A stretch of 64,000 bases of DNA from Magnetococcales bacterium (GTDB lineage: Bacteria; Pseudomonadota; Magnetococcia; Magnetococcales; Magnetaquicoccaceae). Shown piece after piece: positions 1-64,000 of the stretch; positions within the stretch are counted from its first letter, which is position 1; each line of letters opens with the position of its first letter. A program made the translations under genes and the position numbers. The notes below the pieces were generated by a model. That model ran no database searches. It was not told the DNA's origin and worked only from the letters and a program-made list of their open reading frames with translations. The DNA lies in NCBI GenBank assembly GCA_002753095.1, contig PDZU01000005.1, positions 1-64,000 on the forward strand. The letters run 5' to 3'.

Positions 1-289
1 TGGCGCGGTTTTCTGCGCCAACATGCACACCCTCCTAATGGGTTTTGCCCGCAGCAGGTGAATCAACCCGCAACCAGACTGTGATATTCGTTCATCGAAC
101 ACCAAAAAGTGCGTTATAATCCAAACGGTTAAAGTCGGGCTCCGCCCTCCCAAAGAGTGCCCCTGCGGGGCACAGATTTGGGCGCGCGGTACAGATTTGC
201 TACGCAAATCTGCTTCGGTAAAAGCGCGCCATTTCAAGCAGGGCTCCGCCCTGCACCCGCAAGGGGAGATAATCTCCCCTTGACCCCAT
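1..289 (+). repeat. Copy A of dispersed palindromic intergenic element (left part cut off by window start)
   Basis: Shares the blocks ctccgccctcccaaagagtgcccctgcggggcac, cagatttgct.cgcaaatctgctt..gtaaaagcgcgcc and caaggggagataatctccccttgacccca with copies B-F. Confidence 0.85.
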
Positions 290-317
290 GTTATTTTTTC
301 TTTTGAAGATGATTACG

Positions 318-29976: not shown

Positions 29977-30426
29977 TTGCGGGTCCAGGGGGGTCACCCC
30001 CCTGGCGGGTCCAGGGCGGAGCCCTGGGGTTTTATCTTTTATCTTTTCGCCTTTATCTTTTATACTTTATCTTTTATCTTTTCGCCTTTGGCGCGCTTTT
30101 CACGATAAGCCGATGCGCCTTTTGCATCGGCGCAGCGCGCCTAATTGACGCAAGGTGTTTGGATTGGCGCGCTTTTCTGCGCCAATTCAAACACCCTCCC
30201 AATGGGTTTTCCCCGCCGGTGACTCAATACCTCGCGGTTAAAAGTCGGGCGTCCGCCCTCCCAAAGAGTGCCCCTGCGGGGCACAGATTTGGGCGCGCTG
30301 CGCAGATTTGGCTGCGCCAAATCTGCTTCGTTAAAAGCGCGCCATTACAAGCAGGGCTTCGCCCTGCACCCAGCAAGGCTTCGCCCTGCACCCAGCAGGG
30401 GCGGTGACCGCCCCTGCACCCCGCAA
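29977..30426. repeat. Copy B of dispersed palindromic element (apparently complete)
   Basis: Ends ttgcgggt...accccgcaa; imperfect inverted termini of about 45 bp; internal palindromes shared with D and F. Confidence 0.9.
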
Positions 30427-36588: not shown

Positions 36589-36620
36589 AAAACAAAAAAG
36601 CGGTTGCCTTTAAAACAAAC

Positions 36621-36846
36621 ATGGGGTCAAGGGGAGATTATCTCCCCTTGCGGGTGCAGGGCGGAGCCATGCTTGCAATGTGCGGCGTTTTTAAGAAAGC
36701 AAATGCGTAGCATTTGCGCACGCCGCACAGATTTGGGCGCGATGCGCAGATTTACTGCGTAAATCTGCTTCGTTAAAAGCGCGCCATACAAGCAAGGGCT
36801 CTGCCCTTGCAACCCGCCAGGGGAGATAATCTCCCCTGGACCCCAT
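36621..36846. repeat. Copy C of dispersed palindromic element (compact, 226 bp)
   Basis: Bounded by atggggtcaaggggagattatctccccttg and its inverted relative caggggagataatctcccctggaccccat; shares the agatttgggcgcg...gcgcgcc core. Confidence 0.85.
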
Positions 36847-36892
36847 ACTACTATTATTTTACAGGCAATCGTCTTGGAGAGCGCTTGCCTGA

Positions 36893-53775: not shown

Positions 53776-54569
53776 GCGAATTGATTAACAAGCACAAAAG
53801 CGTCTATATTTTCCCCAGTCTTTTGACCACCGGGGGCATGTTCTTTGGGTTTTATGCCATTATGGCTGCTTTGGGTGGCAACTACGAGCATAGCGCCCAG
53901 GCCATTTTGGCGGCTGGTGTTTTTGATGGTTTGGATGGTCGGGTAGCACGGGCCATGAATGCCACTTCTGCTTTTGGCAAAGAGTATGACAGTTTGGCGG
54001 ACTTCCTTTCCTTTGGCATTGCGCCGGCTGTTTTGGTTTATTTGTGGGCGTTGGAGCCTTTTCATCGTCTTGGTTGGGCGGCGGCCTTCCTGTATGCCGT
54101 TTGTGGTGCGTTGCGTTTGGCTCGTTTTAATGTGCAGCAGCATGTCATTCAGGATGAGCGGGTTTCCAAGCGTTATTTTCAGGGCTTGCCCATTCCGGCG
54201 GCGGCGGGGGTAGTTTCTGCCTTGGTTCTTTTTTATCAAGAGTTGGGGATTGGTTCCACGTCTGGGGAGGTCGTTGGTTTGTGGCGTTGGCTACCGCTTT
54301 TTCTGACCTTTACGTTGGGCATTTTGATGGTGAGTACCATTCGTTTTCGCAGTATGAAGGACTTTTACTACCATCGTAAGCGTCCTTTCCTTACCCTGGT
54401 GGGGGTGGTTATTTTTATTGCGGTGTTGACCATTCACATGGCCTCTACTCTTTTTGTCATGAGTGGCGCCTATTTGCTTTCGGCGTTGCATAGCCATCGG
54501 GAGTATTTGCAGTTGTTGGCGGAGGGGAAAGAGGTGGAGGAGGATGAGGTGGAGGATTTGAGTGTTTAG
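53772..54569 (+). CDS. pssA: CDP-diacylglycerol-serine O-phosphatidyltransferase
   Basis: CDP-alcohol phosphatidyltransferase motif GVFDGLDGRVARAMNATSAFGKEYDSLAD. Confidence 0.96.
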   Translation: MSELINKHKSVYIFPSLLTTGGMFFGFYAIMAALGGNYEHSAQAILAAGVFDGLDGRVARAMNATSAFGKEYDSLADFLSFGIAPAVLVYLWALEPFHRLGWAAAFLYAVCGALRLARFNVQQHVIQDERVSKRYFQGLPIPAAAGVVSALVLFYQELGIGSTSGEVVGLWRWLPLFLTFTLGILMVSTIRFRSMKDFYYHRKRPFLTLVGVVIFIAVLTIHMASTLFVMSGAYLLSALHSHREYLQLLAEGKEVEEDEVEDLSV

Positions 54570-54577
54570 AAATTAAT

Positions 54578-55034
54578 CCGGGTCCAGGGAGCTGGCTCCC
54601 TGGCGGGTCCAGGGCGGAGCCTTGGGAATTTGGCTTTTATCTGTTGCTTTTATCTGTTGCTTTTATCTGTTGCTTTTATCTGTTGCTTTTATCTGTTGCT
54701 TTTATCTGTTGCCTTTGCCTTTCTGGCGCGCTTTTCACGATAAGCCGATGCGCTTTTTGCATCGGCTTAAGCGCCTAATTGACGCAAGGTGTGCGTATTG
54801 GCGCGTTTTTATGCGCCAATACGCACACCCTCCCAATGGGTTTTCCCCGTAGGTAACTGCGTACCTCGCCGTTAAAAGTCGGGCTCCGCCCTCCCAAGGA
54901 GTGCCCCTGCGGGGCACAAATTTGGGCGCGCTGCGCAGATTTGCTGCGCAAATCTGCTTCGATAAAAGCGCGCCATTACAAGCAGGGCTTCGCCCTGCAC
55001 CCAGCAGGGGCGGTGACCGCCCCTGCACCCCGCA
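54578..55034. repeat. Copy D of dispersed palindromic element (apparently complete)
   Basis: Same module order as copy B; contains a 6x13-bp tandem array at 54634-54711. Confidence 0.9.
54634..54711 (+). repeat. Perfect tandem repeat, 6 units of cttttatctgttg (13 bp)
   Basis: Counted directly in the sequence. Confidence 0.97.
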
Positions 55035-55055: not shown

Positions 55056-55832
55056 TCAACGATAAATCGTAACCTGCTCCTGCTCCGCCGGCATCCCGAC
55101 ATCAGGAGCCCAACCACCTTGCTGCACCATGTTACCACTCAACTGACCTTGCAACTGCCGAATGGCATCCTGCGCCAAACCCTTGGAAACCTCAGCAATC
55201 ATCCGACCCCGACTGGGCACCACCCGCGCCGCCGCCGACTCCCGCAACCGCACATCCGACCCCTCACCCATGGCACTAAAAGCCGCCTTCACCTCGCCAC
55301 TCTTGGCATGGATCAAACTGAACTCCACCACCAACTCCAAACCAACCGTCTGCGCATAAGTCGATACAGTCCCAGCAACAGGCGTGGACTCATCCCGCAC
55401 ATCAATACTGCTGACCGTACCAAAAAGAACGTAATCCGCCCCCTTGTAATAGCCCCGCTTGATGCGATCCAATACGTCAAACAACCGCTCCTGATCCTTG
55501 CCACCAATCGGCTTGCCCTGCACCACCCGATAGCCGGATTGAATCAACTCCCCCCTCAAATCAGCGGTAAACTTGTGCAACTCCCCACGGTCAATGTATA
55601 CATTGACCCCCTCCCGCTCATCATAAAGGAAATCAGTCTGCTCCCGACCACTGCGCACACTCTCCTGACGCGTCTGCCGAAAATCAGCAGACACAGAACG
55701 AAAATATTGCTGCACCTTCTCCTCATAGGTCAGATCCGTCACAGCAATCTTGGGCGGTCCCTTGTCCGCCGCATGCCCCACCACACTCAAACACATCCAA
55801 ACCAACACCATCCAGCCACGGAGCACTCTCAT
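55056..55832 (-). CDS. Exported protein, CsgG-like
   Basis: Signal peptide VWMCLSVVGHAA; KIAVTDLTYEEKVQQYF, GADYVLFGTVSSIDV, AKSGEVKAAFSAMGEG; start MRVLRGWMV. Confidence 0.65.
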   Translation of the reverse strand: MRVLRGWMVLVWMCLSVVGHAADKGPPKIAVTDLTYEEKVQQYFRSVSADFRQTRQESVRSGREQTDFLYDEREGVNVYIDRGELHKFTADLRGELIQSGYRVVQGKPIGGKDQERLFDVLDRIKRGYYKGADYVLFGTVSSIDVRDESTPVAGTVSTYAQTVGLELVVEFSLIHAKSGEVKAAFSAMGEGSDVRLRESAAARVVPSRGRMIAEVSKGLAQDAIRQLQGQLSGNMVQQGGWAPDVGMPAEQEQVTIYR

Positions 55833-55886
55833 AAGCCCTCTCCTTTGAATTTTCCCATACCCACCAATCAAGCCAACAAGGTGCAT

Positions 55887-56041
55887 GTCGGGCGTCCGCC
55901 CTCCCAAAGAGTGCCCCTGCGGGGCACAGATTTGGCGCGCTGCGCAGATTTGCTGCGCAAATCTGCTCACGTAAAAGCGCGCCATTTCAGCAGGGCTCCG
56001 CCCTGCACCCGCAAGGGGAGATAATCTCCCCTTGACCCCAT
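55887..56041. repeat. Copy E of dispersed palindromic element (right half only)
   Basis: tccgccctcccaaagagtgcccctgcggggcac...caaggggagataatctccccttgacccca. Confidence 0.88.
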
Positions 56042-56058
56042 GCAACTTTTCAAGACCA

Positions 56059-56670
56059 CTAACGCGTCGTCGTCTTGCGAATCTCCTTCTCATCCGCCCA
56101 CTCCACCACCCCGGACTCGATCTCAGTCAAACGCAGGCTGAATTTATAGTAAACGTCATGAATATCCTGCGTGCGCTTGGTGATGGAAGAGATACTACCC
56201 ACCAAACGATAATCGGCGCCCTCCATCCTGCCCATCTTCTTGCTGGTGCTTTTTTTGTATAGTCCACTCTGATTCTGACGCGCCAACTCCTCAGTCTGAT
56301 CCTGCATGTCCGCCGTATCTACCACAAAACGAACCACCCCACTCTTGGTCATCTGGGTCAAAATCGAATCCGTAATGGCACGGGTGTCAATATACTCGCT
56401 GGTCTTGTTCTTGACCTCGTTGACAGTCACCAAAGGTCGACGCTTGCCACCATGCAAAGCCGGAGATTGCAACATCGAACGGGTCATACTCTCCGCAATC
56501 ATCTGCAAATCAGTCGAACCAAAGGTGTTGGTCACCGTCTCCACCGCCTTGGCATCCCCATACTGCACATTGCCCCCAACCAAAGGCGGCGACGTAGGAC
56601 CAGAACCAGTCGCACAACCCGCCAATAAAGAGGTCACTACCAACAGCTTTGCTACCCTTCTCATCGTCAT
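56059..56670 (-). CDS. Penicillin-binding protein activator LpoB-like lipoprotein
   Basis: Lipobox LLAGC; NEVKNKTSEYIDTRAITDSILTQMTKSGVVRFV; GADYRLVGSISSI. Confidence 0.8.
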   Translation of the reverse strand: MTMRRVAKLLVVTSLLAGCATGSGPTSPPLVGGNVQYGDAKAVETVTNTFGSTDLQMIAESMTRSMLQSPALHGGKRRPLVTVNEVKNKTSEYIDTRAITDSILTQMTKSGVVRFVVDTADMQDQTEELARQNQSGLYKKSTSKKMGRMEGADYRLVGSISSITKRTQDIHDVYYKFSLRLTEIESGVVEWADEKEIRKTTTR

Positions 56671-63766: not shown

Positions 63767-64000
63767 TTGCGGGTCCAGGGGGGTCACCCCCCTGGCGGGT
63801 CCAGGGCGGAGCCCTGGGAATTTATCTTTTGATTTTAATCTTTTCGCTTTTAATCTTTTGCCTTTGGCGCGCTTTTCACGACAAGCCGATGCGTTTTTTG
63901 CATCGGCGCAGCGCGCCTCATTGACGCAAGGTGTTTGGATTGGCGCGCTTTTCTGCGCCAATCCAAACACCCTCCCAATGGGTTTTGTGCGAGGTCACGA
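63767..64000. repeat. Copy F of dispersed palindromic element (right part cut off by window end)
   Basis: ttgcgggt begins one base after the murG TAA; same left-half modules as copies B and D. Confidence 0.9.

Follow-up and report, generated by a model that had tools for sequence, protein, structure and literature searches.

Intrinsic terminators in tandem contain a GC-rich hairpin and a T-rich tract behind stop codons. The same layout was found in the dispersed repeat described here, and the equal site in a relative (G004) was occupied by a plain terminator; however, the present unit was near-identical at about 65 sites and contained extra hairpins past the T tract. REP and BIME sequences are built on a short palindrome (20–40 bp), one end of which carries an unpaired tag, GTAG or CGTC (PMC2817692, PMC3733652). 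The present repeat resembles them as a mosaic of palindromic modules in opposite orientations at gene ends, with a species-specific high copy number and modules that recombine (PMC2817692, PMC3733652). In our study, palindromic modules were found to alternate in about 65 extragenic composites, in which a type 1 and a type 2 unit were arranged tail-to-tail. However, the unit was devoid of GTAG, its 17-bp stem was part of a 42-nt hairpin, the composite was ordered and far larger, and no flanking of a transposase gene by such units was established. The CGTC that the linker (TTGACGCAA) shows when its opposite strand is read was missing in a genome of the same genus (G005; GGAAGCAAG) and did not qualify as a REP tag. 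The BOX element of pneumococcus (PMC3049150) is likewise a modular intergenic repeat with a predicted RNA fold, one part of which differs in copy number, whereas the variable-length part here was an unstructured T-rich tract and the module layout was unrelated. SPRITE is also a terminator-like repeat that occurs dispersed, has a stem of 18 bp, and is strongly enriched between convergent genes and near gene ends. It is formed by one hairpin and a T-rich tail, whereas the present unit contained five hairpins, one of them with a hypervariable covarying stem, and two units were usually present tail-to-tail. To our knowledge, on an informal comparison, no motif or array fitting integron attC sites or CRISPR repeats was present, and these were dropped. 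In Rfam 15, the window (the whole stretch of 64,000 nucleotides that was analysed) was without a match above the gathering score, and at E values up to 1 copy D of the element showed only chance matches far below it. Phage and plasmid collections contained no match to the element. Three matches of viral contigs to the loop-proximal motif were rejected, as they were one unrelated sequence carrying other GCGCCAAA repeats. Taken by analogy, the element would be a new repeat family comparable to BIME and SPRITE. We consider it, with a probability of roughly 0.55, a dispersed and modular family of terminator-type palindromic repeats at 3′ ends, with a structure that is maintained in the RNA, and judged from its sequence its most likely site of action is the transcript at the ends of genes.

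The type 1 unit of about 270 nt contained two GC-rich hairpins (a and b), followed by a T-rich tract, the double hairpin 1, a linker, hairpin 2, and a tail. Beyond the tail a spacer was present, followed by a type 2 unit with a similar general plan on the other strand, which in most cases came from a convergent gene. In copy D, hairpin a (54584–54603, plus strand; CCAGGGAGC..GCTCCCTGG) was located directly past the stop codon of pssA (54567–54569); the letters of its stem varied among copies with pairing preserved. The terminator-like hairpin b (54608–54626, plus strand) was followed by a T-rich tandem-repeat spacer (54627–54724, plus strand). Its repeats (TTTTATC, TTTTATCTGTTGC, and similar) form a short array in tandem; the spacer ranged from 7 to 290 nt in other copies, and it is likely a strain-variable locus. 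The double hairpin 1 (54725–54775, plus strand) contained the outer stem GGCGC/GCGCC and the inner stem GCCGATGC/GCATCGGC. The hypervariable, covarying 17-bp stem of hairpin 2 was found at 54788–54829 (plus strand), followed by the tail CTCCCAATGGGTTTT (54830–54844, plus strand), which contained a 3-bp mini-hairpin and a T run. The type 2 unit (54871–55034, minus strand) was present tail-to-tail with the first unit, and the folding z scores of the two units of copy D were −6.8 and −4.2. Type 2 units were also found alone or paired, in the window and at a further locus (L109). Two of them lay tail-to-tail between convergent genes at 36620–36851, near-symmetrical and without hairpin 2, and a lone unit was present at 55885–56048 (minus strand).

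The first-pass annotation had described a 17-bp stem whose letters vary between copies while its pairing is retained, and copies B, D, and F read as described. The arms of hairpin 2 were GGTGTGCGTATTGGCGC/GCGCCAATACGCACACC in copy D (54788–54829) and GGTGTTTGGATTGGCGC/GCGCCAATCCAAACACC in copy F (63930–63971), and in copy B (30154–30195) one C-to-T change gave a single G·U pair. The composite of copy B was found at 29980–30425 (plus strand), and that of copy F started at 63770 (plus strand), reached the window end at 64000, and ran about 240 bases beyond it (L107). Copy A (1–290, plus strand) was cut by the contig start, the first base of the window being also that of contig C20. It contained the loop and, as had been noted, only the right arm of hairpin 2 (GCGCCAACATGCACACC at 15–31, preceded by TGGCGCGGTTTTCT), then the tail and a type 2 unit (minus strand) behind bioA. 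The left arm predicted for it (GGTGTGCATGTTGGCGC) had no exact occurrence elsewhere in the assembly. The tail had been called constant in every visible copy; this did not hold for copy A, where the tail CTCCTAATGGGTTTT contained one change (ctccTaatgggtttt). The hairpin had also been taken as the whole element, but it was found to form a single module within a larger unit at gene ends.

A 207-base query, used together with the tail pattern, identified about 65 sites across the 3.58 Mb of the genome. Contig ends were often present within or beside the repeat (window position 1; C16, C24, C26, C99, and C126), and the copy number is therefore probably underestimated. The 57 full-length copies with both arms contained 38 different 10-nt left arms and 39 perfect stems. 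Their variable positions were Watson–Crick paired at 541 of 570, against 373 ± 9 (maximum 408) in 2000 re-pairings of the arms. In an alignment of 55 copies, 99.4% of 1814 cells were paired, against 91.1 ± 0.4% when shuffled and 29–46% with slid partners; the covariation score was 0.237, whereas slid partners reached 0.054 at most, and two-sided changes were present at 11 pairs. The covariation over all copies, on which the first-pass annotation had made its claim depend, was very strong and above the shuffled and slid controls. The outer arms had a sequence diversity of 0.348; the values for the loop-proximal stem, the linker, and the tail were 0.003, 0.048, and 0.03, respectively. Hairpin 1 was found to covary too, with GATGC/GCATC in 26 copies, GACGC/GCGTC in 28, and one U·G. 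Six copies were without the left arm of hairpin 2, and in these hairpin 1 or the T-rich tract was fused to the loop or right arm; a few copies were mosaics with unmatched arms. The alleles of different modules were unlinked between copies (p = 0.40), which fits the expectation of recombining copies. Dozens of copies in one genome, with near-constant flanks and a freely changing paired stem, form an unusually clean data set on how RNA stems change on both sides, through wobble intermediates under selection or through template switching.

Template switching has been proposed for RNA stems (PMC8794818). The swaps between pairs were transversion-type, that is without a wobble intermediate, in 13 types and 73 cells, against 7 types and 49 cells for transition-type swaps, and template switching may contribute to them. 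These counts also bear on an explanation without structural selection, in which inverted-repeat correction, whether by template switching or by gene conversion from arm to arm, equalises the arms and the covariation is a by-product of replication; the first-pass annotation had itself named such correction as its alternative. It is favoured by the predominance of swaps without a wobble intermediate, by the nearest copies differing at one pair, which mostly differed on both sides (17 of 21), and by the mechanism having been proposed for maintaining RNA stems (PMC8794818). However, arm correction alone predicts leftover mismatches that are mutation-like, whereas the observed ones were rich in G·U. 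On the plus strand of eight genomes, 22 distinct mismatches were G·T or T·G and 5 were A·C or C·A (binomial p = 0.0015), the independence of distinct mismatches as events being incomplete. The corresponding substitutions in unpaired columns, with the window's genome as control, were 3 versus 9 (Fisher p = 0.0013), so that the mismatch bias ran opposite to the substitution bias of the unpaired columns. Three more A·C cells, outside the mismatch count of the hairpin finder, were at position 1; this is the outermost pair, and fraying can be expected there. Loop inversion, one signature of template switching, was found in none of the 55 aligned copies, and arm correction leaves the constancy of the loop-proximal stem, linker, and tail unexplained. 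As a full account of the covariation, we regard it as quite unlikely.

The same mismatches separate the forms in which the structure might be kept. The first-pass annotation had proposed a folded structure, either RNA or hairpin/cruciform DNA. A duplex cruciform would show no mismatch preference, since a G·T on one strand is an A·C on the other, and it was disfavoured as the preserved structure by the one-sided wobble bias. As the G·U-biased mismatches lie on the strand of the upstream gene, the structure of hairpin 2 seems to be kept as plus-strand RNA or as the single-stranded DNA of that strand. The earlier proposal was supported in part.

The type 1 unit was on the strand of the preceding gene and started within tens of bases of its stop codon. 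Genes were called by their codon usage, with a simple score for which eight genes served as training set. In the window's genome, 49 of 53 preceding genes were co-oriented with the unit and 46 of 51 following genes were opposite to it. Across six other genomes the preceding gene was co-oriented in 42 of 58 cases, and the following gene was unbiased (23 of 52). The bias on the upstream side only in these other genomes indicates that the unit belongs to the preceding gene. Counting by the longest ORF was unreliable owing to long antisense ORFs, and codon-usage calls were used instead. Some units followed genes that were not co-oriented, which counts against the terminator reading. Copy F (63770–64000 and L107:1–372), the main exception to convergent placement, lies in a dcw-type cluster with murG on one side and, as read by eye, an rsmH-like frame on the other.

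The same sites were compared in relatives. In the interval from pssA to the 345-aa gene, an ordinary two-way intrinsic terminator (AAAAACGGATGCC..GGCATCCGTTTTGCTTTTT) was present in G004 without the element, and composites were present in the window's genome (G000), G005, and G001. That of G005 was differently built, split across two contigs, with the type 1 unit following the other gene, and that of G001, again differently built, contained two type 2-like units. On the 3′ side of bioA, a plain terminator was present in G004 and a cluster of GGGGTCCAGGGG hairpins in G003.

This presence or absence of the composite at equal sites among relatives is one of several points in favour of a selfish miniature mobile element, whose hairpins would be recognition structures for a single-stranded-DNA transposase and whose location between convergent genes would merely be where insertions are tolerated. 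The others are the roughly 65 near-identical copies, the patchy presence inside one genus, three Y1 transposase (Y1_Tnp) genes, one of them about 1.1 kb from a type 2 unit at a contig end, and the short interspersed repeats of pneumococcus, which have a convergent bias likewise and were interpreted as parasitic (PMC3049150). However, the other two of the three Y1 genes were without a unit within 1.5 kb, neither a GTAG tag nor a constant CGTC tag was present, and no target-site duplication was established; GGCGCGCTTTT/AAAAGCGCGCC flank the central 250 bp. The orientation was consistent relative to the upstream gene, and dispersal leaves the G·U-biased mismatches unexplained unless one DNA strand always folds. 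We hold the mobile-element explanation possible but rather doubtful. Either it or arm correction can hold alongside the terminator-type reading.

Under the terminator-type reading, the unit would be transcribed as the 3′ untranslated region of the preceding gene, with the first hairpins and the T-rich tract acting as an intrinsic terminator and the stable downstream hairpins as back-up barriers to read-through transcripts and exonucleases. In hairpin 2, constraint would be limited to base pairing itself, to the linker beside it, and to the loop-proximal segment TTGGCGCG/GCGCCAA, so that the outer 10 bp could drift freely as pairs. Copies would spread among gene ends and swap modules by recombination, possibly aided by arm-to-arm template switching. 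A hairpin with an immediate T run was canonical in other families (L253, GGTATGGGGCGGAGCCCCATGCTGTTTTTTT; L238), whereas the T tract after hairpin b was interrupted in the window's genome (AATTTATCTTTT). A terminator scan of the window's genome found no excess, with 2 found against 1.6 ± 1.3 expected from shuffles. The T-rich tract (mean T 0.57 over 30 nt) followed hairpin b and not the 17-bp hairpin 2. If hairpin b is the terminator, hairpin 2 would be present only in read-through RNA, yet it covaries most strongly.

Hairpin 2 could alternatively belong to a structured regulatory RNA or an RNase III substrate freed from 3′ ends, its variable stem being a copy-specific address. The conserved unpaired linker and tail, the long and perfect stem, and the order-wide structural homologues with very different arms agree with such an RNA. 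However, no Rfam family fits, the arms recur between copies, and the examined G004 copies share one arm, with one exception; we regard this explanation as very improbable. A broader proposal, which we consider unlikely, is an order-wide structured 3′-untranslated RNA with one stem changing only pairwise, a regulatory or RNA-processing role beyond termination, and arms renewed by template switching. If true, this renewal would be a natural experiment in the evolution of RNA stems.

The covariance model (R1) of the element gave strong matches in the same-genus genomes G002, G004, and G005 and no match in G003 and G006 of that genus; in other genera and families of the order, the matches were full-length but weaker. 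Across the phylum, 15 of 299 genomes matched, all within one order. The number of copies was at least 75 in G005, 10 in G004, 1 in G001, and 0 in G003 and G006. Hairpin 2 of other members of the order contained very different arms that were still paired (GTCTGACTCTTGGCGC/GCGCCAAGAGTCAGAC in G036), and their hairpin b was followed by a proper T run. Among named genomes, the exact tail had one match each in a Fibrobacteraceae MAG and in Roseovarius. The overall picture suggests that, in several families of one order, many genes are closed by multi-hairpin cassettes at positions that carry simple terminators in close relatives.

The 345-aa ORF (55056–56093, minus strand), as listed, contained a type 2 unit in its first part (55885–56093). 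About 75 codons of its N-terminus were repeat-derived, with 150 protein-level matches genome-wide, and its true start is therefore probably near 55826. The stem of the plain terminator behind bioA in G004 (L217; CAGCCGATGC/GCATCGGCTG) resembled the inner stem of hairpin 1 (AAGCCGATGC/GCATCGGCTT), and hairpin 1 may be derived from a terminator.
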